This document shows positions 1,688-33,133 of a stretch of 33,384 nucleotides of DNA, in pieces (the stretch's first letter is position 1; each line of letters begins with the position of its first letter). The stretch is from assembly GCA_019359505.1 (NCBI GenBank), contig JAHHHD010000051.1:1-33384 (forward strand), given 5' to 3'. The DNA comes from Drouetiella hepatica Uher 2000/2452 (GTDB taxonomy: Bacteria > Cyanobacteriota > Cyanobacteriia > Elainellales > Elainellaceae). A program made the translations under genes and the position numbers. The notes under the pieces were generated by a model. That model made no database searches, was not told where the DNA came from, and saw only the letters and a program-made list of their open reading frames with translations.

Positions 1688-1733
1688 GTGGGGGCTAGAC
1701 CCACATCATTCTCGTACTCTGTCAAGCCCCCAC
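1688..1733. repeat. Palindrome with 9-bp arms overlapping the operon's last stop codon
   Basis: GTGGGGGCT (1688-1696) is the exact reverse complement of AGCCCCCAC (1725-1733), with 28 bases between. The right arm encodes the last Val-Gly-Ala of the GRDP-like gene and overlaps its TGA stop. With the neighbouring 18-bp hairpin it looks like the end of a small mobile or palindromic element that may have supplied the stop codon. Confidence 0.7.
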
Positions 1734-2408
1734 CCGAAGCACGTTATGCTCGACCAGCGTTGCCACAAGTGCGACCTTTTCTTCGTCGTCGAGCCCCAAC
1801 ACCTCACGAACGTAGAAGGCACCCGTCTGAGCGATGAACGCGAGGGCATCCCGTGCCAACGCATTGGCGGACAGCAGCAACTCACCCGACGGGGTCAAGA
1901 GACTAACTATCTCGCCTTCGTACTGAAGTGTTAGCGTCCCTACATGGTCATTGAAGACTCGCCGCCGCAGCGTCACACTCTTCTCGTCGTACCATACGTC
2001 GGGAAGCGACTCGCCAAAGAGTTCGCGGTAGCAATGTTGAAAGTCTTCAAATGAAGTGACCTCGACCGAGTTCCTAGTATGCGCTTCCGGAGCATTGCTC
2101 GGGTTATGAGGCACATACCGGACGAAGAACCGTTGGCAGAAGTCCATGTATTGTTTGGTAAAGAGGATAAATTGATGCCAAACCTCATCTACTCGTAAGG
2201 AGTACATATCCCAGATCTTCGATTCATCCGCGTGCGTGAGTACGAGGAACCTCTTCACCTCGGTGAAAAGCCTCTCCCCCTCTTCGGCAGTCTCGACGAT
2301 ATGGTCTTTCAGCAACTTTTCGATGAGGAATGGTGCTTCGTACGCCAACGCATCAATGGAACCCATCACTGTTGGGGATGCGGCAGATTCGGCTTGAGTG
2401 ACAGTCAT
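1722..2408 (-). CDS. GRDP-like (PF07173-type) protein with C-terminal recognition-like domain
   Basis: A 228-aa protein. Residues 20-143 carry the signature of the glycine-rich-domain-containing-protein-like family: the segment VDEVWHQFILFTKQYMDFC (W77, H78, C91), then H101 and FEDFQHCYRELFG. The conserved His/Cys/His could bind a metal, but the family's biochemical role is not established. Residues 145-228 form a separate domain resembling the C-terminal extension of the upstream cupin (segment SGELLLSANALARDALAFIA, then a stretch ending LVEHNVLRV). The ATG overlaps the cupin stop as ATGA, and a GAGGGTG Shine-Dalgarno lies about 6 bases upstream, so the two genes are translationally coupled. 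Its last codons run into a palindrome, so the C-terminus may have been altered. I infer a tailoring or recognition role towards the cysteine-rich product of the same operon. Confidence 0.8.
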   Translation of the reverse strand: MTVTQAESAASPTVMGSIDALAYEAPFLIEKLLKDHIVETAEEGERLFTEVKRFLVLTHADESKIWDMYSLRVDEVWHQFILFTKQYMDFCQRFFVRYVPHNPSNAPEAHTRNSVEVTSFEDFQHCYRELFGESLPDVWYDEKSVTLRRRVFNDHVGTLTLQYEGEIVSLLTPSGELLLSANALARDALAFIAQTGAFYVREVLGLDDEEKVALVATLVEHNVLRVGA

Positions 2409-3436
2409 GGTAACACCCTCATGAATAAACCGGTTTCTTCTAGTACTTGGGCGATCGCCGATTGTTCCTCCTTAGAAAGATGTCCGGGCAAAGCGCAGAC
2501 GTCAAAGATCGATTCTCTCGCGATCAAGGCGATTGCAGCGCAGGCTTCGTTGCTGATGATAATCTCATCGAGCGGTCCGTTCGGCGTCTCCACCTCCAGG
2601 GCCACCATGTCGCCGTGTGGGCGTGGCCGGAGGACTAGACCCATGTGTGTCCTGGCGAGGATCCACGGTGCTTCGGTGGCATTCCCCTCAAAGGGTCTGG
2701 GTGACATCTGATCGATCCAATTTCGAGTCACCGGAGAAGCGAGCCTGTAACACCGCGACAGGAGCTCCGGTGCCTGAGGTACATCCATAGAGGCGAGAAT
2801 GAGGGCAAGTTGATGAACGGACCTCTGTCGCTGACGAGCGACCATGACGCTCGTATATGGATGGTCGTATTCCGCAGTAGAGAGTCCGGGCGTGACAAGA
2901 GCGGGCAGCGGCTCTTCGTAGTCGCACAACTGCTCGCCGTCTAGCGGGCTGCTGATGTGAAGGGACAAAGACCAATCGCACGAAGTATTCCTTGGCTCAT
3001 GGATGCACGGTTCGTAGATGAAACCAACTGTCCCAGCTGATGCGTGAAAAAGGTTCTTCGGCACTAGCTCACGCCGTCGATAAGATTCCACACGGTTATA
3101 TGTCAGTACCTCAAGTTCATTCCGGCACACTGCGGTAATCGTCCACGCCGTATGCTCGTGTGGTCCGGGCGTCCCACCAGGCGGCCAGTACCCGAATGCG
3201 AACCGCACACCCAAACCCGGTATAGTGAAAAAAGGCACGAGTCCCCGCCGTAGGCGATTGTCTTCTAGGAGGCGCAGTTCCCACGATAGACAGTCCGCCA
3301 AGAACTCGTCATCGACGACAGCAGTTCCCACGATAGACCGTGCGCGAAGAACCGCGTCCCGTTCCGGGTGCACTTGCGTTCCCAATGTGGGAAACCGTAG
3401 GTCTTCAAACACTTCGCAGAGTTGTTCGAGTTTCAT
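2405..3436 (-). CDS. Cysteine-dioxygenase-type cupin with C-terminal extension
   Basis: A 343-aa protein. Residues 65-165 match the cupin core of thiol (cysteine) dioxygenases: FGYWPPGGTPGPHEHTAW places H93 and H95 in motif 1, and CIHEPRN plus SLSLHISSPL place the third iron ligand at H146 with H160 in the SLHxxSPP-like motif. Known family members use Fe(II) and O2 to convert a thiol to a sulfinate. Bacterial cysteine dioxygenases are usually about 200 aa; here an extra C-terminal region follows, including a domain at about 262-343 resembling the C-terminus of the next gene. It lies 172 bp downstream of the cysteine-rich protein gene and overlaps the GRDP-like gene by 4 bp. I infer that its substrate may be the cysteines of that protein rather than free cysteine; this is untested. 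The start ATG at 3436 has only a weak ribosome binding site. Confidence 0.78.
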   Translation of the reverse strand: MKLEQLCEVFEDLRFPTLGTQVHPERDAVLRARSIVGTAVVDDEFLADCLSWELRLLEDNRLRRGLVPFFTIPGLGVRFAFGYWPPGGTPGPHEHTAWTITAVCRNELEVLTYNRVESYRRRELVPKNLFHASAGTVGFIYEPCIHEPRNTSCDWSLSLHISSPLDGEQLCDYEEPLPALVTPGLSTAEYDHPYTSVMVARQRQRSVHQLALILASMDVPQAPELLSRCYRLASPVTRNWIDQMSPRPFEGNATEAPWILARTHMGLVLRPRPHGDMVALEVETPNGPLDEIIISNEACAAIALIARESIFDVCALPGHLSKEEQSAIAQVLEETGLFMRVLP

Positions 3437-3608
3437 TGCGGTGTACTCACTAACTATAGGTACAACAGTGAGACTGACAGACGGACATGGGCTTCAGAAT
3501 AACGATGTACCCACTCATTTGCTTGCGCTTACTCAAAGCTGGATAGCAGTTTCTCGAATTCTGACAATCTCAGCCCCCTTGTACTCTGAAAAATGCGGGG
3601 AATGATGC

Positions 3609-4097
3609 CTAGTCAGTCCCGTACCAACAGTAGGATCGGCAGCGAAGACAGTAGGATTGGCAGGTCCAACAGTAGGACTGGCAGGTCTTGCGGAGGGGCG
3701 TTGGGCGCGTCAGAATACGGAGCCGCCCTTTATTGACCTCTCTGAGGCCCACTATTTCATTAGTAGTTGCGTTGAGGTCTGTTGTTTCCACAGTTACACC
3801 CTGGCGATAGGTAATCTGTGCATCCTTCTTTACCCAGATGATTGTTGCTCCGAACAACATGAACGACTCGGGTACTTCCCTGAAGTAGAGAATGTCACCT
3901 CTGGCGATCTCAAGGCATTCCGAGAGATCATTCAAGCTCCGATACAGATTAACGTATCCCTCGGCTCTCGATGGACCGATGTAGCCTCGCAAGGTAATCG
4001 CACTTGTCGCTCCTTCAGTAACCAACAATCTCGCCAAGAGCGGGTTCTCCGGGATATTCTCGCCTGAACTAGTCTCTTCGCTAGTCTCTTCCGCCAT
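3609..4097 (-). CDS. Small protein with C-terminal triple cysteine heptad; candidate modified-peptide precursor
   Basis: A 162-aa protein of unrecognised family. The start is ATG 4097, which follows a strong AAGGAAGG Shine-Dalgarno with 9-base spacing; an in-frame upstream start at 4148 has no such support. Residues 1-20 are acidic and Glu/Ser/Thr-rich. Residues 25-115 look like a small folded beta-rich domain (for example GDILYFREVPES and GATIIWVKKDAQITYR). A basic linker (RPTPLRK) leads to three heptads, CQSYCWT, CQSYCLR and CRSYCWY, then Gly-Thr-Asp and the stop. The six cysteines are C139, C143, C146, C150, C153 and C157. No signal peptide, membrane segment or Gly-Gly cleavage site is seen. 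It is the first gene of the operon with the thiol-dioxygenase-like cupin and the GRDP-like protein, so a substrate or precursor role is the leading inference. A metal-binding tail is the main alternative. Confidence 0.72.
   Translation of the reverse strand: MAEETSEETSSGENIPENPLLARLLVTEGATSAITLRGYIGPSRAEGYVNLYRSLNDLSECLEIARGDILYFREVPESFMLFGATIIWVKKDAQITYRQGVTVETTDLNATTNEIVGLREVNKGRLRILTRPTPLRKTCQSYCWTCQSYCLRCRSYCWYGTD
3621..3683 (-). repeat. Three tandem 21-bp units encoding Cys heptads
   Basis: Reading on the minus strand, 3683-3663, 3662-3642 and 3641-3621 are three imperfect 21-base units, each containing TCCTACTGT. They encode C-Q/R-S-Y-C-x-x. The close DNA identity suggests recent in-frame amplification of the putative core region. 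Confidence 0.9.
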
Positions 4098-4106
4098 CGT
4101 TGCTTT

Positions 4107-4114
4107 CCTTCCTT
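4107..4114 (-). promoter_or_regulatory. Shine-Dalgarno deciding the start of the Cys-heptad gene
   Basis: On the minus strand AAGGAAGG lies nine bases before ATG 4097. This favours the 162-aa product over the longer 179-aa frame that opens at 4148. Confidence 0.7.
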
Positions 4115-4266
4115 TTGGACTGAAATAGATGATGGCAGCATATCTCACTTATTCTGCCGCGGCAACAGGAGAGGTCGATTTTTTCCGCCGAACGATTGAG
4201 ATGAGCCGCCGCAGATAACCTAGAGCATCCAACATATAACTTATCAGCAGTCGGCTCCATCGATTT

Positions 4267-4420
4267 GTGTACGCCCAGCATGGGCATGAACTAATGGGGT
4301 GAAAGTCCCCTGGAGGAGAACCAACGTCCAAATGCTCGAAAGTATTGGAGCCAAGTGACGACCCCTCGTGGGGTCGAGCCGTCGAGTAGAGAGGACTCCT
4401 ACGATGGTTAGGCTTGCTTT
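4267..4420 (+). mobile_element. Group II intron 5'-end fragment (domain I)
   Basis: The plus strand starts GTGTACGCCCAGCATGGGC and continues with ATGGGGTGAAAGTCCCC and a GGAGCCAAGTGACGA segment. These match, as I recall them, the 5' end and domain I stems of cyanobacterial group II introns. No reverse transcriptase frame and no domain V follow nearby, so only a 5' piece is present; its right limit is uncertain. A 3' intron piece in the same orientation lies at about 19.5-19.7 kb. Confidence 0.55.
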
Positions 4421-4560
4421 GTGTTCTCCGTTGCTCTCGCCTTTCGGTTTCAAGAGTTTCACAAGATTCAGCCCTGCACCGTTGGGAGCCTTCCCCTTAC
4501 AGAATCCTGCCTGCGGTTTTCCCGCACAAGCCTCTTCATTCGGTCTCTTACCAAGTAGGA

Positions 4561-4657
4561 TTACAGCGGTTTTCGCTTGAATAAGCCACACGAGCAGCCG
4601 AGAAAAATAGCTACTTGGTACTTAACCTGTGGCTTACTGATCTGAAAATCGCTGTAA
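4561..4657. repeat. Inverted-repeat element with 29-bp arms (MITE-like)
   Basis: Arms 4561-4589 and 4629-4657 are imperfect reverse complements, about 23 of 29 positions by eye. They share TTACAGCG at the outer ends and TAAGCCAC at the inner ends. The intervening 39 bases encode nothing visible. The small hairpin element fits a MITE or a collapsed IS with internal deletion. Confidence 0.6.
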
Positions 4658-4720
4658 GTGACACCAGGCGACCTGGCTTAGCCAGAGGATATCTGGCTTG
4701 GTAACGCAGGAAGCTCTCCC

Positions 4721-4807
4721 AAGTGAAGCTCCGTCGCTGACTGCGGCGATTCAGCTCTTTAAAGCTCAGATGAGTGCTTAGAGTAGTTGCGCGGGACGCA
4801 ACTACTC
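4721..4807 (+). repeat. Dispersed palindromic repeat A, long copy 1
   Basis: About 87 bp ending in the hairpin GAGTAGTTGCG (4781-4791) / CGCAACTACTC (4797-4807). The whole stretch, including GTCGCTGACTGCGGCGATT and a TTTAAAGCT segment, recurs inverted at 8085-8167. Shorter copies of the hairpin core occur at 13382, 22933 and 28103. Confidence 0.85.
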
Positions 4808-4834
4808 TGATAGTTTCAGACTACTTCAGACATT

Positions 4835-5172
4835 GTGGAGTCCTGTCCTGGCACAACCGTACAAGGGTTTGAGTTGGATCTCGGCTAAACGAGCTTCATT
4901 GACTGCCTTCAGGTGACGACTCCATAACGGTAGTTAGGCTAATGTTGAGCACTCGTGCCGTATCTCAGATACCACTGCCATTGAGTGCTATCTCCGTAAC
5001 CTGCTGTTTGATTTCCGGTAGGTAAGTATGATAGGTATAATCCTGAATAAAGGGGCTACGCTGACACTTTTGATTGCAACCATTTGTAGCAAGGTTTTCC
5101 AGCACCAGAGCGACCATGCCTGACGATATCATTGCTGCCACAGTCTGGACATAGGACAGGTTCTAATACCAT
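4835..5172 (-). pseudogene. Decayed IS1-family transposase (InsA-like) remnant
   Basis: From ATG 5172 the minus strand encodes MVLEPVLCPDCGSNDIVRHGRSGAGK, the CxxC zinc-finger start of IS1 InsA. The continuation is in other frames: CQRSPFIQDYTYHTYLPEIK, then KQQVTEIALNGSGI, then the HTH-like DTARVLNISLTTVME. At least two frameshifts and several stops separate these pieces, and the InsB catalytic part is not recognisable. It is flanked on the left by dispersed repeat A. Confidence 0.7.
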
Positions 5173-5256
5173 TTGCCATCTGAGGAAAAATTACTCTTCT
5201 CATGACTCTTTCATTTCTACACCTCTAGAACATTACCAAATCGATGGAAGAAAGAA

Positions 5257-5496
5257 ATGGTTGACCCCAAGTTACTTGAACAGCTAAAAACTGCCTCGGT
5301 GGATGAGCGTATTGCTGTGATTGAAATGCTGGTGCAGTCTTTGAAAAGCGACATCAACCCTGGTGTTGCCCCCTCACTCGAAACGACAACCGATTCACAC
5401 CATCCCGCGTTTGGATTCATGAAAGAGACTGGGGCAATTCTCGGCGATGTGCTCACCCCAGTTCTACCTGAAACTGCCTGGGAAGTCCTTCAGTGA
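5257..5496 (+). CDS. Antitoxin of a VapBC-type pair
   Basis: A 79-aa protein starting MVDPKLLEQLKTASVDERIAVIEMLVQSL, a helical, charged N-terminus typical of small antitoxins that pair with PIN-domain toxins in cyanobacteria. The C-terminal half (SLETTTDSHHPAFGFMKETG) is probably the toxin-binding tail. A GGAAG ribosome binding site precedes the ATG. The stop codon overlaps the GTG start of the toxin by four bases (GTGA), so translation is coupled. In such pairs the antitoxin binds the toxin and usually represses the shared promoter; the exact antitoxin family cannot be named from sequence alone. Confidence 0.8.
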   Translation: MVDPKLLEQLKTASVDERIAVIEMLVQSLKSDINPGVAPSLETTTDSHHPAFGFMKETGAILGDVLTPVLPETAWEVLQ

Positions 5497-5882
5497 ACCT
5501 CCTCCTCGATACCCACATTTGGCTCTGGTACGCCCTCGGTGATTCCCAACTCTCAGAAAATCTGCGGTCAACGATCGCAGCAGAAACTACGGAGCTTTGG
5601 CTCAGCCCCATTAGTGTCTGGGAAGTGCTGCTTCTGGTAGAAAAAGGACGCATCTCTCTGCAATTGGATGCTGCCACCTGGATTGATCAATCCCTCAAAG
5701 CGTTGGCAATGCGGGAAGCTTCACTCAATCATCAGATTGCAATTCTGAGTCGGCAGCTTACTTTGTCGCACCAAGACCCCGCCGATCGCTTCATCGCCGC
5801 GACAGCTATTCACTATCAACTCCAGTTAGCTACCGTCGATGCTCGTCTCACAGGTGCCGATTGGTTGCAGACCATCAGTTAG
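5493..5882 (+). CDS. vapC: PIN-domain toxin, VapC-type ribonuclease
   Basis: A 129-aa PIN-domain protein of normal VapC length. The acidic metal-binding residues are visible: D6 in LLLDTHIWLW, E44 in SPISVWEVL, D95 and D98 in HQDPADRFIAATA, and D116 in TVDARL. VapC toxins are Mg-dependent endoribonucleases that cut tRNA or rRNA to arrest growth when the antitoxin is lost. The GTG start overlaps the antitoxin stop. The reading frame is intact and all key residues are present, so the module appears functional. Confidence 0.9.
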   Translation: MNLLLDTHIWLWYALGDSQLSENLRSTIAAETTELWLSPISVWEVLLLVEKGRISLQLDAATWIDQSLKALAMREASLNHQIAILSRQLTLSHQDPADRFIAATAIHYQLQLATVDARLTGADWLQTIS

Positions 5883-5905
5883 AACAATGATAAGTCAGGG
5901 TAATC

Positions 5906-6248
5906 ATGGATAAACTGCCGCACTATCACACCTGCATTCAGACGTTATTGAAGCAGCACAGTCAGTTTAGAACCCAGGATGAAGCGGTTGAAAATGAACT
6001 GGTCTTCGATCATGATCGTGACCACTACCAACTCATACGCGTCGACGGTCAAGGCTTGAACCGCGTCTATCATACCGTTCTTCAATTCGACATCAAAGAC
6101 ATCAAGATCTGGCTTCAGCAAAACACCACCGATATTGATGATTGATGTAGGACAAGAATTGATCGAGATGGGCAATCTCAAAAACGCGATCGTCCTGGGG
6201 CTGCATCCCGCCCATAAACGACCTTATACTGGCTACGGCGTTGCCTAA
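5906..6248 (+). pseudogene. xisI: xisI (fdxN-element excision controlling factor), frameshifted
   Basis: The first 79 residues (MDKLPHYHTCIQTLLKQHSQF to DIKDIKIWLQQNTTDIDD) are clear XisI sequence. The frame stops at 6145, but the shifted frame continues with the normal XisI ending (VGQELIEMG, ILGLHPAHKRPYTGYGVA) to a stop at 6246-6248. The cause is visible: ATTGATG is tandemly duplicated (6134-6147), a 7-base insertion. XisI proteins usually pair with XisH, and no xisH is seen here. XisI and XisH families are widespread in cyanobacteria beyond the heterocyst fdxN element, so heterocyst formation cannot be inferred. Confidence 0.9.
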
Positions 6249-6720: not shown

Positions 6721-7567
6721 CTAAGGTGATTTCTCTTTTATATCACATTCCTTCTTTTGTTGCTCATTCCATTCCATTTCATATTCACTTGGTATCAAAT
6801 ATCCAAGTGACGAATGTATTCTCTTCTTTAAGTAGACTTCATCTAGAAACCTCCCTATCTGCTCACGAGCTTCTGCAAAATTACGATACTCTGATAAATC
6901 TACCTCCTCTTCCTTTATTGTTCTCATTAACCGCTCTGCATACCCGTTCTGCCACGCCTCTCCTACTGCCGCCATGCTGATCCTGGCTCCCACTCCTTTG
7001 AGAATTTCAACGTACTCATTGGCGGCATACTGTACCCCTTGATCTGAATGATGGATCTCTGGCTGATGCTGCTCTAATCCCTTTTTCAAAGCTGTAACGG
7101 TTAAGCTCACCTCCATACTCCGTGACAGATGCCAGCCCCGAATACTGCGGGTAAATACATCCATTAACACCGCCAGGTATACAAACTCTTGCTGCAATCG
7201 GATATAGGTGATGTCCCCTACCCAAACTTGGTCAGGATGATCAATTACCAACTCACTCACCAAGTTAGGATAGCGTCCAAACTCATGGTTGCTATTGGTT
7301 GTGCGTTGCCGCCGCTTCGGAGCTTTACCGCATAGCCCCAGTTCTGCCATCAACCTAGCAATTCGCTTGTGATTAACGCTCTCGCCCTTCTCGTTTCAAC
7401 TGTTGGGTAATTCGCCGATAGCCATACCGGGGATAGCGTCCCGCTACCTCTACAATCAAAGCTTTAATGGTGCTCTCGTCAGGCGGCTGACTCGCTTGGT
7501 AATACCAATTCGATCGCCTATATTCCAACACCTCGCACACCATTGTTATTGGGTACTCGCCTTGCAT
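6721..7567 (-). pseudogene. IS3-family orfB transposase, frameshifted
   Basis: Two frames form one OrfB. The N-terminal part (7567-7373) has QGEYPITMVCEVLEYRRSNWYYQ and PRYGYRRITQQL. The C-terminal part (to 6721) has the rve DDE core: DQVWVGDITYI, IHHSDQGVQYAA, and the Glu of the third motif in NGYAERLMRTIKEEEVDL. The break is at about 7373-7380, where one extra base turns the expected EGESVNHKR into EGRER plus a stop. With orfA it would normally be expressed as a -1 frameshift fusion. Confidence 0.9.
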
Positions 7568-7572
7568 CTGCT

Positions 7573-7893
7573 CTATGAGCGCCCGTTTTTGCCGTCGCTC
7601 AAGTACCCCGATGCCTTTTTTGCTATCTCCAGTTTCATCGTCAACTGTCCGACTAGCCGCTCTAACTCAGCAATCCGCTCTTGGTCTTGACTGCTTTGGG
7701 CATCACGTTCAAACAGGCTTGGGGCTTGTTCAACAAATTCTTTACGCCAGCGTGCCAAGACATTGGCATTGAGCTTGTGGCTGCGACACACTTCGCTTGG
7801 GGTTTTTTCGCCACTGATTATCTCCAAGACAAGTTTCGCCTTAAATTCGGCAGTGTATTGACGACGGTGAGTTGCCATTGTTTTTCCCTCCAT
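7573..7893 (-). CDS. IS3-family orfA (HTH_Tnp_1)
   Basis: A 106-aa protein with the orfA helix-turn-helix: RRQYTAEFKAKLVLEIISGEK, then SEVCRSHKLNANVLARWRKEFVE, followed by a leucine-zipper-like stretch (ERIAELERLVGQLTMKLEIAKK). The true start may be the internal ATG giving MATHRRQY (7878). OrfA binds the IS ends and supplies the N-terminus of the OrfAB transposase. The frame is intact, though its partner orfB is broken. Confidence 0.9.
   Translation of the reverse strand: MEGKTMATHRRQYTAEFKAKLVLEIISGEKTPSEVCRSHKLNANVLARWRKEFVEQAPSLFERDAQSSQDQERIAELERLVGQLTMKLEIAKKASGYLSDGKNGRS
7615..7621 (-). promoter_or_regulatory. A6G slippery heptamer for programmed -1 frameshifting
   Basis: On the minus strand AAAAAAG sits near the orfA end (codons for IAKKASG). 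A -1 shift there leads into KGIGVLERRQKRALIEQMQGEY, joining orfA to orfB. This is the standard IS3-family expression site. Confidence 0.7.
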
Positions 7894-19544: not shown

Positions 19545-19682
19545 AACATCACCTCCGTAAGGGTTGTTAAGAATTGGAGACACTGAATCTCAAGGCGTTG
19601 CTTGAGCCGTGTACAGTGAAAGTTGTAAGCACGGTTCTGAGGGGAGGGAGGGGGACATATCTAAAACTCTCTCCTTTACCCG
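19545..19682 (+). mobile_element. Group II intron 3' fragment (domains V-VI)
   Basis: Domain V is clear at 19604-19638: GAGCCGTG pairs with CACGGTTCT and TACA with TGTA around a GTGAAAGT cap, with an AGC-type bulge. A GGGAGGGAGG / CTCTCTCC stem follows, resembling domain VI, and the likely 3' end is at about 19680 (CTTTACCCGAC). No reverse transcriptase frame or 5' half is adjacent. The beta-helix gene begins about 20 bases after this end. Confidence 0.75.
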
Positions 19683-19703
19683 ACCGCGACCGCGAGGTGA
19701 TTT

Positions 19704-21167
19704 ATGACTCATCAATTCATGTTCCATGCTGACGACTTCGGCGGTGATCTTCAGCGTGCTTTCGATGAAGCGGCCGGTGGTCACTTGTATTTTGACGGAA
19801 GCAAGAATTACCCCATTGACTCCGTCAAAGTGACGAAACCGATTACGGTCACAACTAACAGTTGTCAGTTTACCTATGCAGGAAACGACCCTTCAACATT
19901 TGTGCTGGAGATTGCCACGGACAATGTCCGTTTCGATTCGTTTCGCCTACTGATCCCAGGTGGCCATTTCACAAGGGGAATAGGTGTCATTTCAAATCGG
20001 GGCTTTCGATGTGACCAGATTGAAGTCATATCGGTAGATCAGAGCGCCGTCACATTGGAGGGAGCGCCAGGAGATATTTTTAGTAGCGGTGTCCATGGTG
20101 TGCGGCTCGACGACTTAAAGGACGCACGTCTCGGGAGTGTGCGGTGCAAAAACTTCGAATTGGCGCTTGCGATACGACGTTGTTCGGATTTGATGATTGG
20201 CGGAGTTGATGTCACAAACTATTTACTTGCCGTTTGGTATGTCGATTGCGTGCACTGCTGGGCTGGGCCAAGTCGTATACGATCATCCCTAAACGGCGAA
20301 AAAGCTCCCGGCAACTGCGGACTACTTCTGGAAAATCGATCCGGCCCTGATTACTCAAGCGGCTCACTTACATTCGTGGACTGGGACGTTGCCAACGCGC
20401 CTGAACACGGTATCCGGCTCGGTGGTAAATACGCGCTGTCAAACATACAACTAGTCCGGCCCGTCGTGCATGAATGTGGATCTTCTGGCATAAAGATCTT
20501 CGCTGGACCGTTCATCTTTCACAGAGATTGCTTGATTGATCGCCCTGCTGTGTATGACGTGGGCACATCCGACAGCGAAAATGAATGTGGGTTGCTCCTC
20601 CAAAACGTTTCAAGGTCGCTGATACGCGAACCGAAGGTGTTTGCGATGAATCGCGAACATTGCGGTCGACACGGCATTAGGATTAGCGGATGCGATCATT
20701 TGCACATTCTTAATCCAATGATCGAGCAAGCACTCCTTGACGGGATACGCATCGACAATAATCTGTCCGCAACGCCGCCGGACGAAATCTACATGGCCCA
20801 TCTGACAATTCACGGCGGCTCAATTATCAGATGCGGGGGGCACGGCATACATGTGTTCTACGATGGCATTAAGGGAGATCGCCTACTCCGCTTCCTTCGA
20901 CTCACTGGGTTTCCTTTTATTCAGGGGTGCGCGGGCTCGGGGATCGTTTTCGACCGGGGCGACTCTGGCGAACAGAGAGGATCTTCGCTGACGGGCGAAA
21001 TCATCGACTCAGGCCAACCCCAAGTGGTGGCCAATAAGGAAGTGCCAGGTAGTTTCAAGGTAAGAGCTCGTTTAGGTGAACTGCCTGCGTTAGCGGATGG
21101 ATCCATTCTGCAAGTGGAGGGTGAATTTGTGCTCATACGGAAAAACGGAGCTTGGGACTTGGCGTGA
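19704..21167 (+). CDS. Right-handed parallel beta-helix (pectate-lyase-fold) protein, gene-cassette encoded
   Basis: A 487-aa protein with no signal peptide. The N-terminus (HADDFGGDLQRAFDEAAGGHLYFDGSKNYPIDSVKVTKPITV) is the usual cap of pectate-lyase-like beta-helix proteins. The body repeats short strands with G-I-x-I or G-I-R-I turns (HGIRLGGK, SGIKIFAG, HGIRISGCDHLHILNPMIE, DGIRIDNN, HGIHVFYD, SGIVFDRG) through about residue 420. Such folds serve as polysaccharide lyases or hydrolases, phage tail-spike depolymerases or adhesins; I see no diagnostic catalytic triad, so the activity is open. It starts just after a group II intron 3' end and is followed 115 bp later by an attC site, so it is most simply an integron cassette. 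I noticed no HIP1 octamer in it, unlike the kinase genes. Confidence 0.75.
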   Translation: MTHQFMFHADDFGGDLQRAFDEAAGGHLYFDGSKNYPIDSVKVTKPITVTTNSCQFTYAGNDPSTFVLEIATDNVRFDSFRLLIPGGHFTRGIGVISNRGFRCDQIEVISVDQSAVTLEGAPGDIFSSGVHGVRLDDLKDARLGSVRCKNFELALAIRRCSDLMIGGVDVTNYLLAVWYVDCVHCWAGPSRIRSSLNGEKAPGNCGLLLENRSGPDYSSGSLTFVDWDVANAPEHGIRLGGKYALSNIQLVRPVVHECGSSGIKIFAGPFIFHRDCLIDRPAVYDVGTSDSENECGLLLQNVSRSLIREPKVFAMNREHCGRHGIRISGCDHLHILNPMIEQALLDGIRIDNNLSATPPDEIYMAHLTIHGGSIIRCGGHGIHVFYDGIKGDRLLRFLRLTGFPFIQGCAGSGIVFDRGDSGEQRGSSLTGEIIDSGQPQVVANKEVPGSFKVRARLGELPALADGSILQVEGEFVLIRKNGAWDLA

Positions 21168-28221: not shown

Positions 28222-29022
28222 CTAGAGCCAAGGTAGTCCAGCGCTGTATTTTTCCATCATATACCTATTCCCCTCCACAATATAATCAGGAGGCACAGGG
28301 CCATTCTCCTTCAAGCGATAGTTAACCGTGTATTTTTTTGAGGATAAATAGCTAGGGAACTTGGCGCACAAATTGTGAAAGAAGTACCTGTCGCCTCTTC
28401 GCGGATGATACCAATAGTGTGCTGTCTGAGCAATTGTGCTTCTTCTGAACGCATAGCAGTTTGTATCAACATAACTCGGCCAGCCGTTCTTCAGATGGGA
28501 GTACGGCGGATACATGCCAATGCTCTCACAGTTGTCATCTGCGACATAGACTTCATCGTGCGTGTAAATCTTTCTCATCGAATGCGCCCAATCAACTCTA
28601 TCCCTGCCGAGCAGGGCGACCATCGAACTAACGTGTTCGGGATCCCACCAATTGTCCTCATCAAGAAATAATATGTATTTTGAGTTCACGAGAAGGGGAA
28701 AGGAGGCATAAATGCGATGACCGCTCAACAACCCATCTTTTCCAGTGTTAAAGGGCAATACACACACCGTGCACCTGCTGCTATTGGCCCCTGATAGGAT
28801 CTGCCGGACCTGCTGCTCAAACTGGAGCCCATCAACCACTATCAAATGGTCGATGTCCCCGTGGTCTTGGTCAAAAACACTCTGGATAGCCCTACCCAAG
28901 AACAGACTACCCGTTGTGGGCGTGATCACAGCGACACTTAGATGCCGGTGCCCAGCGTCGCCAATGATTTGATCAACATGCCCATAGATGTCACCCAAGA
29001 ATCCATTCTCGATATTTAGCAC
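28222..29022 (-). CDS. GT-A fold glycosyltransferase, family 2-like
   Basis: About 266 aa. The GTG at 29022 is preferred because AAGGAGG lies four bases upstream; the frame also allows a start at 29079. LSVAVITPTTGSLFLGRAIQSVFDQ is the usual GT2 N-terminus, LIVVDG and YILFLDEDNWWDPEHV give the nucleotide-sugar and metal-binding DxD-type motif (DED), and the C-terminal half has CYAFRRSTIAQTAHYW and PRRGDRYFFHNLC. No membrane segments are seen. GT2 enzymes transfer a sugar from a nucleotide sugar to an acceptor; the acceptor is unknown. It is the last gene of a five-gene minus-strand operon, 77 bp after the Ham1-like gene by this start. Confidence 0.82.
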   Translation of the reverse strand: MLNIENGFLGDIYGHVDQIIGDAGHRHLSVAVITPTTGSLFLGRAIQSVFDQDHGDIDHLIVVDGLQFEQQVRQILSGANSSRCTVCVLPFNTGKDGLLSGHRIYASFPLLVNSKYILFLDEDNWWDPEHVSSMVALLGRDRVDWAHSMRKIYTHDEVYVADDNCESIGMYPPYSHLKNGWPSYVDTNCYAFRRSTIAQTAHYWYHPRRGDRYFFHNLCAKFPSYLSSKKYTVNYRLKENGPVPPDYIVEGNRYMMEKYSAGLPWL

Positions 29023-29099
29023 AAAACCTCCTTCAGGTCTCCGACGCAAGAACCCAATGAGCGCGCGAACAACGGGCAATTCACCTCAAAGATTGCTGG

Positions 29100-29642
29100 T
29101 CAGAACTCACCTTGATACTCGCCCTCCCACTCTGGAATCTCTAGAATCCGCCTTACAAATGTCGGCGCAGAGTTCCGATAGGCATCTAGGGCAATTCGGC
29201 GAGCAGAAAATCTGCTCTTTGCTCCCATTCGCCGCAGCTCAAATAGAGTCAGATCAGTGCCTTGAGGAACAAAATATGGCTCGAAAGATGATATACACAC
29301 ATCTGGGGGCACCTCTATTCTACCGTTGATGATTCCTCGGTACACATACAGATTGACATCGTCATGATATCCAAGTGACGTAATCCACGATGCGTCGGCG
29401 CAAGCCTTCATCCCTTTCGCTCGAAACTTTAGATCGACAATTATCTCTCCGTCGACCTTCAGTACAGTGTCCTCCACGAGCGTATGAGCATCCGAGCTCA
29501 ATATCTTATACATGATCACCTCATCCATCGTTCCCAAGACTTCTCGGGTACTGTGTCCCAGTTTCGCGGACATCCCTAGCGCTGTGTACTCATCAACCTT
29601 GTGTTGACTAGAGGTGAGAACGAACATGTCCACCATTCTCAA
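29100..29642 (-). CDS. Ham1/RdgB-like nucleoside triphosphate pyrophosphatase, divergent
   Basis: A 180-aa protein counted from TTG 29642; ATG 29636 or ATG 29627 (MFVLTSSQHK) are plausible starts. The N-terminal FVLTSSQHKVDEY corresponds to the TGNxxKxxE substrate loop of Ham1/ITPase enzymes, LVEDTVLKVDGE to the EDT motif, SFEPYFVPQGTDLTLFEL to the FxPxF-PxG-TxxE segment, and KSRFSARRIAL to the terminal KxxxSHR region, with His replaced by Ala. The family removes pyrophosphate from (non-canonical) purine NTPs to give NMPs. An NMP is exactly the substrate class of LOG enzymes, and two LOG genes lie immediately upstream, so a joint nucleotide-processing role is likely. Confidence 0.72.
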   Translation of the reverse strand: MRMVDMFVLTSSQHKVDEYTALGMSAKLGHSTREVLGTMDEVIMYKILSSDAHTLVEDTVLKVDGEIIVDLKFRAKGMKACADASWITSLGYHDDVNLYVYRGIINGRIEVPPDVCISSFEPYFVPQGTDLTLFELRRMGAKSRFSARRIALDAYRNSAPTFVRRILEIPEWEGEYQGEF

Positions 29643-29666
29643 ATACGATCAAACGCGAGCGATAGG

Positions 29667-30221
29667 TTAAACACGAAAGCGTCCAGCCAGGAACACGTCA
29701 ACGGCTTCTTCTGACGTCTCGACGACAACGTACCTGGCGGAACTACCCAAGCTACTTGGCGATGCCTCATGCATTGTTCCAAGCAGATCCGAAAGGCAAT
29801 TCCAGTAGCCCTGCGTATTGATCAAGTATATTGGCTTGTGGTGAATATCGCGTCCCACGCAAGCCAATTGCTCAATTAGTTCCTCAAGCGTCCCGGGTCC
29901 ACCAGGCAATGCCATGAATGCACTGGACAAACCAGACATCAGCATCTTTCGCTCATGAAAACCCTTGACCTCATGGTATTCACTGACCTCGCGGAGTAAA
30001 TGCTCGGTATTAACGAGCGCTGTAGGCATAACGCCAGTTACATGCCCTCCCCTGGCAATTGCAGCCCGCGCAACTACACCCATTAGACCACTGCCGCCAC
30101 CACCATAGACAAGGCCAAGTCCAGCCATCGCAATCGCACTTCCCAAGCGACGGGCTGCATCAGCATACTCCGGGTTCGTACCGACGCTCGAACCACAAAA
30201 CACGCAGACCCTCGTTAGCAT
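29667..30221 (-). CDS. LOG-family phosphoribohydrolase (cytokinin-activating type)
   Basis: A 184-aa protein with the full LOG signature: VCVFCGSSVGTNPEY, YGGGGSGLMGVVA (about 39-51), the Arg/Lys pair in FHERKML and the motif PGGPGTLEEL (106-115) with the catalytic Glu. LOG enzymes cleave the N-glycosidic bond of nucleoside 5'-monophosphates, classically cytokinin ribotides, releasing the free base and ribose 5-phosphate. All catalytic residues are present. It lies 63 bp downstream of a degenerate paralogue and 24 bp upstream of the Ham1-like gene. The genes between two glycosyltransferases suggest a biosynthetic rather than housekeeping role. Confidence 0.92.
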   Translation of the reverse strand: MLTRVCVFCGSSVGTNPEYADAARRLGSAIAMAGLGLVYGGGGSGLMGVVARAAIARGGHVTGVMPTALVNTEHLLREVSEYHEVKGFHERKMLMSGLSSAFMALPGGPGTLEELIEQLACVGRDIHHKPIYLINTQGYWNCLSDLLGTMHEASPSSLGSSARYVVVETSEEAVDVFLAGRFRV

Positions 30222-30284
30222 TGCTTCGCCTCATCTAGCAGCCCAAAAAGAATCACTCGATGCATAAGAGTCCCACCGCTCTAA

Positions 30285-30884
30285 TTAGGATAACTCGCTT
30301 GAACCACTATCGAATCGAGCGGGGCTTGTTCTGCTCAGCAATGTCGCCAAGAAGTTAGGCACAATACACTCCACGTCAGCAAACTCAGTGTAACGCGCAT
30401 GAAAGTCATCAGGAAGGAATGACTCTAGCCTCATCTTCTCAAACATCTGCAACAGCGGACTCCAGTAGCCCGCTGCGTTGACAATGTATACCGGCTTTCG
30501 CCCGAGTACGCGTGGCATCCAAGTCAGGTACTCCATAAGCAAGTCTAGCGTACTCACGCCGCCGGGCAGCACGACAAAACTGTCAGACAGAGTAAATATC
30601 ATCGTTTTGTATTCATGCAGTTCGCTGACTGCTACACGCCCATCGGATTTCTCAGCCCCCTCCGATGACAAGGGCGAACGGGACGAGACACGAATGACGC
30701 GGACACCATTCTCCGTAATAATTCCGGAAATCCGCCGAGTTAACTCGCTTGAGCCATCTTCGCAAACCAGACCGATTCCCTCGCGAGCCATTGCAAAAGC
30801 TAATCTTCCTGCCATCTCGACAAAATCTATCCCGGTATATTCCTCTACATCCCCCAGTACACAGAAGTATCTCATCCGCGTCAC
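30285..30884 (-). CDS. Degenerate LOG-family paralogue
   Basis: A 199-aa protein with the LOG fold pattern (FVEMAGRLAFAMAREGIGLV, HEYKTMIFTLSDSFVVLPGG, LGRKPVYIVNAAGYWSPLLQMF) but altered catalytic motifs. The glycine-rich GGGxxGLM loop is replaced by CEDGSSELTRRIS, and PGGxGTxxE reads PGGVSTLDL, losing the catalytic Glu; the HERK pair is HEYK. It is probably catalytically dead and could be a structural or regulatory partner of the canonical LOG encoded next to it, since LOG proteins form dimers or hexamers. Its GTG start overlaps the upstream stop by one base; ATG 30875 (MRYFCVL) is an alternative start. Confidence 0.8.
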   Translation of the reverse strand: MTRMRYFCVLGDVEEYTGIDFVEMAGRLAFAMAREGIGLVCEDGSSELTRRISGIITENGVRVIRVSSRSPLSSEGAEKSDGRVAVSELHEYKTMIFTLSDSFVVLPGGVSTLDLLMEYLTWMPRVLGRKPVYIVNAAGYWSPLLQMFEKMRLESFLPDDFHARYTEFADVECIVPNFLATLLSRTSPARFDSGSSELS

Positions 30885-33133
30885 TATCTATGAAAGAACG
30901 CATAATCGTTGTCGTATTTTACGATATGACCTAGGTTAAGCCCTTTATTGATGCCGCGCACGTAGTCAGCAACCATTCGGAGTTTCTGATCCCAAGCCAC
31001 CTCAGTAAGAGCACGCCCCTGATGTTTTAAGTCAGGATTGCTGGCGTGGAAGTCCGCCATGGACGACGCCATGTAAACATGAGGCTCCACAAACGATTCA
31101 GATCTCAAGAACAAGGTGATTGCCGGATTATTTTGCGCGATATGCTCATCGAACTGCACATCATGAATGGTGTTCGCGGACATATAGTAGCTATCGCCAG
31201 CAGTCAACTTCAGGCGATCCTCAATTGTTTGGACTTCTACTTCCTCGCGGCCGAAGTGGGGAGGCCATACACCATGCACGTGAACCAGTTTCACGCCGCT
31301 GTATCGATCCGCCCTGTCCGCCATCGGATCATTGAGCAATCGGTGTACCGAATCGCGCTGCGCATAAATAGACTGATGCATTGTCCCGATGACTACCACG
31401 GACGCAAAGTCAAAAGGATGTGAATGGGGCGGTTCCACAATAGAAGAAGGATGGGGCGAGCGACCGCATAAGAATCCTTTTGCGCGAACATTCGGCTGCC
31501 AGATGTGCATGCTCAGAGCCCATGCCGAAGTTGGTGTCTTGCCGAGAAACCTCTCAACACCGGGCCGGGGCGTAACGGTTCCTTCCGTCCTCTCTGCTCC
31601 TGAGAGGACGAGTCGTGTCTGACCACACCAACCGTAAACTGCATGTTTGCTAGACCTGTGAGATATCTCACTCAAGGCTTGTTCGACCGTACCGTCGCGA
31701 CGCGACGAGTCACGAATCATGTCCAGAAAGGTTGCGAAGGTTTCTGGCTCTCCGAGTGTTCGAACAAACGTATTCATCCGGATGAGTCGTTCATCCCCCC
31801 TCGGGAGCGCACGTATAGAGTCCAACAGCAGGCGAACAGTTGAGAGCGGCTCCACGCTCCTCGGCTGACTTCGCCAGTCCTCTACGAGTGACAGTAGTTG
31901 CTCCCGAACCGGAGCAGATTGCTCCAGCTTTGCCATGCGATCACGGATGTCACGGAGTGACATCCCGTCCGTGCTCACAGGGGGACAACAATTTGGCAGT
32001 TGCGGCGGTACCATTTGCTGATCGACATTCAATAGAAGGTCCTGCGCGAGCGTTGCGGGACCACACTGATCCTCGGTCGGCCGCAGATTACCATCAGTCC
32101 AGAGAGTGTAGCTCTGACCGGAACAGAATTCTTCAAACAAAGCGATGAATTTGCCCATGGTCTGATCTTCAACGAGCTGCCGATTTGTACGTTTTACTTC
32201 ATTTATCCGCTCAACATCCGGCATATTCTCCCTCAGAACGTGCGCCACCCCAAGTTCCTCGAAGTTAGCACCTATCACTCCAGGGTACTCTCTCAGGACG
32301 GCCTTCAGTTGCAAGTACTGGCTGTAGCTCTGGGGTGGAAGAAACATTACGTTCTTCCTTAGAAAATAGTTTTCATAGAACCCATGCAGGCCAGCGCTGG
32401 CAAGCACCATATCTGCAGACTTCAAGTACGCGATATGCTCGCGCGGCGGCAGACTATCGATGGTCAATCGAGAGTGCTCAAACCTCGCAAATTCTCTCTG
32501 CATAAACTTCTTTCCGCCACCACAGATCAGAATGTGGTATCTCTCTAGCTTCTTCTCCGCGGAGATGTAAGCAATCAATCTCTCGTAGAATACAGGAAAA
32601 TCGTAAAGATTTGAGTCGATGCCGCCCAGAGAGACGAGCAGAAACGGATGAGGGACTGCCTTTGGCAGAACGTTGGTATCTACAAGTGGCGCCACCATCT
32701 TGAACTTGGTTGAGCTGCCAAACCGATGCGCCGATGCGCCGATGCAATGAAAATCCTCAATGTAGTATCTTTCAACATCGTCGAGACTTATCGGCAAACG
32801 ATTCCACATCCAGAACAGCGTATCGACAAAGACGCAGGGCAGATTCGCCCGCTTCGCAATGTCTACACCACTCGGATAGGTGTTCGCAACGACAATGCAC
32901 CCATTCTTGTTCAACCCACCACCTACCGCGACAATGGCTTGTTCGGTCATTTCCTCGATATGGGCAACTTCGTCGAAGACGTCACTACTTGCCGCCAATT
33001 GATAGGAAGTCCCACACCCGGCAAAAAGGAGCCTCCGTTGTGGCTGGATCGCTTTGATCTGTCGAGCGATGGTTACACTTGATGAGATCGGGCCGAATCC
33101 AAAGGGTTCGGCGAGGAAGAGGATGTTCTTCAT
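30884..33133 (-). CDS. GT-B-like glycosyltransferase fused to a C-terminal cupin
   Basis: A 749-aa two-part protein. The N-terminal 1-320 resembles GT-B glycosyltransferases: MKNILFLAEPFGFGPISSSVTIARQI, then HPFLLVSLGGIDSN, a YHILICGGGKKF strand, DSLPPREHIAYLKSADMVLASAGLHGFYE (acceptor/nucleotide region as in MurG/MGT types) and NVMFLPPQSYSQYLQLKA. Residues 330-540 are a helical linker without known motifs. Residues 560-700 look like a cupin: EPPHSHPFDFASVVVIG, a later GDSYYMSANTIHDVQF and AITLFLRS, with H-x-H and a third His as potential metal ligands. I do not know this fusion as a named family. It is the first gene of the five-gene operon; the ATG 33133 is preceded by about 250 bp of non-coding DNA where the promoter must lie. 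Confidence 0.7.
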   Translation of the reverse strand: MKNILFLAEPFGFGPISSSVTIARQIKAIQPQRRLLFAGCGTSYQLAASSDVFDEVAHIEEMTEQAIVAVGGGLNKNGCIVVANTYPSGVDIAKRANLPCVFVDTLFWMWNRLPISLDDVERYYIEDFHCIGASAHRFGSSTKFKMVAPLVDTNVLPKAVPHPFLLVSLGGIDSNLYDFPVFYERLIAYISAEKKLERYHILICGGGKKFMQREFARFEHSRLTIDSLPPREHIAYLKSADMVLASAGLHGFYENYFLRKNVMFLPPQSYSQYLQLKAVLREYPGVIGANFEELGVAHVLRENMPDVERINEVKRTNRQLVEDQTMGKFIALFEEFCSGQSYTLWTDGNLRPTEDQCGPATLAQDLLLNVDQQMVPPQLPNCCPPVSTDGMSLRDIRDRMAKLEQSAPVREQLLSLVEDWRSQPRSVEPLSTVRLLLDSIRALPRGDERLIRMNTFVRTLGEPETFATFLDMIRDSSRRDGTVEQALSEISHRSSKHAVYGWCGQTRLVLSGAERTEGTVTPRPGVERFLGKTPTSAWALSMHIWQPNVRAKGFLCGRSPHPSSIVEPPHSHPFDFASVVVIGTMHQSIYAQRDSVHRLLNDPMADRADRYSGVKLVHVHGVWPPHFGREEVEVQTIEDRLKLTAGDSYYMSANTIHDVQFDEHIAQNNPAITLFLRSESFVEPHVYMASSMADFHASNPDLKHQGRALTEVAWDQKLRMVADYVRGINKGLNLGHIVKYDNDYAFFHR

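Follow-up and report, generated by a model that had tools for sequence, protein, structure and literature searches.

What do three adjoining genes of the cyanobacterium Drouetiella hepatica Uher 2000/2452 do, given that they encode a small protein with a cysteine-rich tail, a cupin and a GRDP-like protein? The genes lie in the stretch analysed here (the window: 33,384 nucleotides, positions 1 to 33,384 of contig JAHHHD010000051.1). A preliminary description, made from the sequence alone, had proposed that the tail is a substrate, either the core of a ribosomally synthesized and post-translationally modified peptide (RiPP) or a thiol sensor, and that the other two proteins modify or recognize it. 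We find that the genes form a real, recurrent and compact RiPP-like set, whose pair of domains is undescribed together in the open-licence literature searched and whose membership of the RiPPs is putative. The proposal that the tail is a RiPP-like core recognizable by its two partners is supported by distant recurrence, a shared leader, variable cysteine cores and a shared C-terminal domain. Compared loci are cited by L numbers and genomes by G numbers. The features, including a C-terminal domain that resembles a RiPP recognition element (RRE), are as follows.

3609 to 4097, minus strand: precursor-like protein, 162 aa; N-terminal domain at about residues 14-98, leader segment EVNKGRLRI at 120-128, Cys core at 139-157.
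3621 to 3683, minus strand: three 21-base units encoding CQSYCWT, CQSYCLR and CRSYCWY, at the end of the 162-aa gene.
2405 to 3436, minus strand: cupin, 343 aa; predicted thiol-dioxygenase fold at 1-183 with His93, His95 and His146, and a winged-helix, possibly RRE-like, C-terminal domain at about 254-340.
1722 to 2408, minus strand: GRDP-like protein, 228 aa; GRDP-like domain at about 25-141 and a winged-helix, possibly RRE-like, C-terminal domain at 144-227.

The three frames (162, 343 and 228 aa) are genuine and all lie on the minus strand, spanning 4097-1722. The three heptads with six cysteines (C139-C157) read in the preliminary description are confirmed on this strand, and the coordinates bear out its account of a cupin gene followed on the same strand by a GRDP-like gene with a 4-base overlap; a 172-base gap separates the 162-aa gene from the cupin gene. 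Purine-rich AAGGAAGGAAAG stands immediately upstream of the ATG at 4097. A scan for promoters and terminators gave a result no better than that for shuffled sequence. Scans of the three proteins against Pfam, NCBIfam and PADLOC returned no usable match.

Streptomyces, Mycobacterium and Oxalobacteraceae have the gene set too, as does a Bacteroidetes record, there without a visible peptide. On a Streptomyces plasmid, all three genes are found in identical order, with 52% identity for the cupin, 53% for the GRDP-like protein and 29% for the small protein. A cupin search of genome contigs gave 12 loci (Sorangium, two Streptomyces, Actinomadura, five mycobacterial, two Oxalobacteraceae and a Bacteroidetes metagenome-assembled genome), which together with the Streptomyces plasmid, the window, G661 and G1160 make 16 cupin loci. 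Identities to the window proteins are 45-60% for the cupins and 41-57% for the GRDP-like proteins. A GRDP-like gene is present in 14 of these 16 loci and a peptide carrying the leader motif in 13; the peptide of L027 could not be seen because only 116 bases precede its cupin.

The cupin is not required for the association. The motif, derived from cupin loci, was then found in a somewhat widened pattern beside cupin-free GRDP-like genes, in mycobacteria and in two Streptomyces-genus genomes. All 19 loci whose fetched stretch contains a GRDP-like gene but no cupin (L048-L064, L116 and L117) carry a motif peptide, 14 by the strict rule and five by eye, the latter being L053, L054, L060 and L062, where the motif lies in a longer protein that fails the length rule, and L064, where the GRDP-like gene is in pieces. 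Of 5416 positions drawn at random from these loci, 129 (2.4%) pass the strict rule, and a similar rule finds a motif peptide beside only 1 of 43 GRDP-like genes lacking the winged helix (45 rows classed as 'part', minus two that were the L086 and L087 cupins). Of the Streptomyces-genus rows classed as 'full', two of four pass, the other two having their peptide upstream of the cupin, outside the permitted distance; L086-L089 coincide with L022, L118, L116 and L117. In the cupin-free mycobacterial loci, a small motif peptide precedes the GRDP-like gene, for example one with ...VTVGRLTITSSADRSAEALCFKAAANAALCFRRIG.

Wider genome sets are consistent with this distribution. The cupin profile is matched in 18 of 198 genomes of the genus of M. 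palustre, with a whole cupin in three and a match by the C-terminal domain alone in the remainder. Some GRDP-like match occurs in 77 of 150 Streptomyces-genus genomes, and the full architecture in four (G527, G661, G1450 and G1517), of which G1450 and G1517 have motif peptides with CxSxC tails and no cupin nearby. The phylum of the Bacteroidetes record gave 1 of 61, which is the source itself. Within the family to which the Actinomadura genome belongs, the yield was 0 of 100 (E 1e-40), which shows little since the source genome itself is without a match. The cupin alignment found no relative in viral contigs. Cupin matches in the host phylum and in Actinomycetota that were weak (E 6e-4 to 4e-7) and spanned about 80-105 residues were left out of the counts, since they take in no more than a portion of the cupin core.

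The constant partner is thus the GRDP-like protein, with the cupin as an accessory. The expectation that CxSYCxx-type tails always come with the cupin fails, as L051, L052, L116 and L117 have C-x-S-x-C tails and a GRDP-like gene with no cupin in the fetched stretch. Fifteen more cupin-free GRDP-like loci with other cysteine cores, and the cupins of L017 and L019, which stand without partners, likewise speak against the cupin as a constant companion. The preliminary description would have been abandoned if most genomes had lacked the partner genes; its demand for partners holds for the GRDP-like gene and not for the cupin.

The small protein itself has the build of a precursor. Its tail cysteines, at 139, 143, 146, 150, 153 and 157, fall into three CxSYCxx heptads, the seventh cysteine being at 61. 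When the 162-aa protein was shuffled 20,000 times, no shuffle held three C-x-[ST]-x-C motifs, and the 21-base units are pairwise identical at 15, 17 and 15 of 21 positions. Eleven aligned peptides share the leader E-x3-G-R-L-x-I, downstream of which the cores diverge while retaining Cys; R125, L126, C143 and C146 are invariant, and E120, G124, I128 and C139 nearly so. The leader Glu is not conserved outside the cupin loci. The mycobacterial peptides of L020, L021, L023 and L028 comprise hardly more than the motif and a Cys-rich end (48-62 aa), the starts in L020, L023 and L028 being our choice inside longer open frames. The N-terminal domain of the 162-aa protein is present in 12 of the 35 compared loci, eight with and four without the cupin, and the proteins that have it carry C-x-[ST]-x-C tails in nine of nine typed cores, the window core included. 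Of 51 cases in the typed cores, 26 have Ser two places downstream of Cys; most close pairs were entered once in this set, and L022 and L118 both. One hallmark of a RiPP locus, a gene-encoded precursor with a conserved leader and a variable core next to putative modifying genes, is thereby present.

Two kinds of variant precursor genes were also observed. The long mycobacterial proteins of L053 (7462-8130), L054 (1299-1964), L060 (7035-7925) and L062 (6778-7614) have a hydrophobic stretch, by eye, preceding GRLxI and long Ser/Thr/Asn-rich tails, and may be exported precursor variants. In L018 (7500-7985) and L030 (1051-1498), the precursor gene has its N-terminal domain in another frame than its Cys tail, or lacks most of that domain; these genes may be explained by an error of assembly, by decay or by a second start.

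The C-terminal domains of the cupin and GRDP-like families are homologous (hhalign probability 98.9%, E 3e-17). The domain of the 228-aa protein superposes best on the winged helices of the oxygenases MINA53 (4bu2; Z 11.6, rmsd 2.5 over 85 residues) and NO66 (4cck; Z 9.6, rmsd 2.1 over 84), so that the C-terminal winged helix of the JmjC oxygenases is found here on the 228-aa protein, at Z 9-12, with a homologous domain on the cupin. Next in resemblance come RiPP-enzyme domains with a leader-binding role: McbBCD chain 2 (Z 6.5), the PbtF RRE (6.4), MccB (6.3), TbiB1 (6.0), ThcOx (6.0), NisB (5.8) and PqqD (5.4). The predicted domain is therefore suggestive of an RRE, its nearest relative being the NO66/MINA53 winged helix.

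Several observations weigh against a leader-guided RiPP-like system. RRE scores of Z 4-6.5 fall in the range that the tool labels as possibly reflecting a common arrangement, and unrelated proteins in the same list, a Rickettsia methyltransferase (6.3) and the carbamoyltransferase GdmN (6.1), score alike; the RRE likeness is hence suggestive and no proof. The 228-aa protein is modelled with only moderate confidence (pLDDT 78, pTM 0.58), blocks in 151-220 reaching 89-95. By the rules used, the cupin loci of Sorangium (L017) and Actinomadura (L019) lack both partners, the Actinomadura genome has no match at all to the GRDP-like profile and the Sorangium genome has a single weak partial match; in L019, the 8 kb upstream hold no rule-passing motif peptide and the contig stops 83 bases past the cupin. 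The motif rule was fixed after the first loci had been seen. Several family members are frame-broken (L018, L118, L023 and L064). The 35 loci are not independent, containing near-duplicates by eye (L016/L018, L022/L118, L024/L025, L026/L065, L051/L052, L056/L058/L061 and L059/L063). Finally, no protease or other gene is common to most of the 35 loci, the next shared clusters covering seven and six of them (judged by eye, the one probably of ABC transporters and the other GNAT-like), which leaves release and export of a product unexplained.

The lack of an exporter or protease common to most loci would fit a different function, in which the Cys tail binds metal or senses thiol redox state, the winged helix regulates or serves as a scaffold, and oxygen or thiol state is reported by the cupin, with no covalent product. 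The CxxC/CxSxC spacing is compatible with metal binding, and winged helices are often nucleic-acid binders. Nevertheless, the closest solved relatives of the domain are oxygenase domains, followed by RiPP-enzyme domains, and the short cupin-free mycobacterial peptides retain the leader motif with only one to three core Cys. We consider such a sensor quite unlikely.

The 228-aa protein does not match PF07173, and the GRDP-like label given to it in the preliminary description stands only through relatives: two of six scanned relatives without the extra domain, L084 and L072, match PF07173 just above the cut-off, L084 being a relative in the window's own genome. Asp74, Trp77, His78, Thr84, Tyr87 and His101 do not vary among the 31 sequences that carry the extra domain. 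GRDP-like proteins without this domain have Asp74, His78 and Tyr87 in 44 of 44 and His101 in 43 of 44, although these places are favoured in a set that was itself found by profile. The conserved residues make the GRDP-like domain look like an active site. It could also be a chaperone or adaptor only, the enzyme being the cupin or a host enzyme encoded elsewhere, and the available portions of open-licence papers naming DUF1399 list no reaction for it. This is an unlikely arrangement in our view, given the 19 loci that have a GRDP-like gene and no cupin in the fetched stretch and the near invariance of Asp74, His78, Tyr87 and His101, as expected for an active site.

For the cupin, the label of thiol dioxygenase rests on fold: no Pfam thiol-dioxygenase model matches up to E 10, whereas residues 1-183 of the AlphaFold model (pLDDT 88) superpose on the Pseudomonas thiol dioxygenase 4tlf (Z 14.2, rmsd 3.0 over 157 residues) and on 6xb9 (Z 14.0, rmsd 3.3 over 158). 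The cupin fold and three-His site of thiol dioxygenases are accordingly seen in the model, and His93, His95 and His146 are present in 14 of 14 cupin sequences, as is His160, with Ser158 in 13 of 14. Position 162, which we take to correspond to CDO Tyr157 (aligned by eye), is I, S, T or V and never Tyr in the 14 sequences, so the Ser-His-Tyr second sphere of CDO is not complete in this family. NO66, MINA53 and YcfD are the top Foldseek rows for the cupin, with a poor whole-chain superposition (rmsd about 20), and the HxD...H iron site, which we take to mark JmjC oxygenases, is replaced by H93-x-H95 in 14 of 14. PDB sequence searches with the cupin and GRDP-like alignments returned weak rows only, at E 0.15 or worse.

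Because the top fold matches are small-thiol dioxygenases, the cupin might act on cysteine or mercaptopropionate, its position beside the peptide being incidental, and the absence of both partners from two cupin loci would agree with this. However, the cupin shares its extra C-terminal domain with the GRDP-like protein, and a motif peptide lies near it in 13 of 16 loci, which makes a small-thiol substrate very improbable.

We therefore favour a compact RiPP-like operon in which docked proteins modify core cysteines, a reading that we regard as probable, with both binding and chemistry inferred. In the 162-aa protein, the GRLRI segment would be the docking site for the winged-helix/RRE-like domain of the GRDP-like protein and for the homologous domain of the cupin. 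The GRDP-like domain, through Asp74, His78, Tyr87 and His101, would then perform or enable a basic modification of the core Cys, and the cupin, in cupin-bearing loci only, would oxidize the core Cys further, most simply to sulfinates. Three-His cupins also perform other sulfur chemistry, and the alternation of Cys and Ser in the core leaves linkages other than sulfinates open. More tentatively, as a possibility that we hold to be less probable than not, GRDP-like proteins could represent a new class of peptide-modifying metalloenzymes acting on Cys (with Asp74, His78, His101 and Tyr87), and the cupin the first leader-guided thiol dioxygenase, making peptidyl Cys sulfinates or a new sulfur linkage.

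The composition and distribution of the genes fit acquisition of the operon by the host lineage, as judged from their raised G+C and their restriction to their own genome among relatives. The G+C of the three genes is 0.52-0.56 (third positions 0.60-0.63), compared with 0.43-0.52 (0.42-0.57) for seven other window genes. The small protein is found only in its own genome among 195 relatives (own included), and the full 228-aa architecture only there among 194, of which 18 have any match. The full-length cupin is likewise restricted to its own genome among 386 of the phylum, six having any match and the other five covering 81-105 residues. Frames that we take to be transposases, ISL3-like and IS3-like, flank the operon region at 130-1481 and 6721-7893, in line with acquisition.

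Elsewhere in the window, a small gene pair at 5257-5882 presumably encodes an antitoxin and a PIN-domain toxin. A group II intron match at 19602-19684 (61.5 bits), the sole Rfam match of the window, lies just upstream of a 487-aa frame at 19704. A minus-strand gene run at 28222-33133, possibly a sugar or metabolite cluster, includes a 749-aa protein whose C-terminal part is cupin-like by eye and which adjoins two LOG-type-looking genes. Two neighbourhoods in other genomes were also noted. The Sorangium cupin of L017 (3701-10821) has an asparagine-synthase-type gene on one side and an ABC transporter on the other, stands after a glycosyltransferase with no GRDP-like gene, and may belong to a different RiPP-like context. 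The neighbour at 3701-6232 was considered as a leader-binding protein, its last 50 residues being PqqD-like by eye, and dropped as a glycosyltransferase by Pfam. In the Oxalobacteraceae locus L025 (9703-12932), genes for a JmjC_2-like protein (21.3 bits, cut-off 22) and for a carbamoyltransferase come after the operon; both types are tied to RRE fusions in the portions available of PMC12710340.

If the proposed system is correct, it would constitute a RiPP-like class of two or three genes, with a pair of catalytic domains not found in that role in the literature searched, and might provide the first reaction for the GRDP/DUF1399 family, which is present in plants too. The GRLxI motif beside a GRDP-winged-helix gene offers a search handle for more loci in mycobacteria, Streptomyces and others. 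Open-licence literature, covered mostly at title level, yielded no description of GRDP-like or thiol-dioxygenase proteins in peptide modification.

Among known systems, the RRE-dependent RiPP enzymes (PqqD, TbiB1, PbtF, ThcOx and McbBCD) are alike in having small genes with a leader motif and a variable core beside RRE-type winged-helix proteins, whereas the set described here has GRDP-like and thiol-dioxygenase domains, a GRLxI motif and no common protease. The thiol dioxygenases (3MDO 6xb9, P. aeruginosa 4tlf, CDO, PCO and ADO) share with our cupin the fold of residues 1-183, the HxH with a later His, Ser158 and His160, but lack its added C-terminal domain, and the cupin has no Tyr at the CDO Tyr157-like position. 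With GRDP-like proteins (PF07173, DUF1399), the 228-aa protein has in common the D-x2-W-H, T-x2-Y and H-P signature, seen also in its relatives, of which two match PF07173; it differs in its added domain and in having no PF07173 match itself. The JmjC oxygenases NO66, MINA53 and YcfD, and the RRE-JmjC fusions, resemble the present proteins in a cupin core followed by a winged helix, and NO66 and MINA53 are nearest to the C-terminal domain of the GRDP-like protein. Unlike them, our cupin has H-x-H and aligns to thiol dioxygenases, and a cupin is absent from the GRDP-like protein. Fusions of RRE-like domains to JmjC proteins (PF08007), of which the nearest bacterial examples stand in RiPP-like settings, are described in the accessible parts of PMC12710340, and a term search of its main text, as far as available, did not find 'cupin', 'GRDP', 'glycine-rich' or 'mycobact'. 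PbsQ of the biphenomycin-type RiPP pathway, a cupin-like hydroxylase, acts on a RiPP precursor, but it is JmjC-related and its target is ornithine (PMC12257519, available portions). Cupins in RiPP pathways are thus already known from PbsQ, though they are of a different kind.

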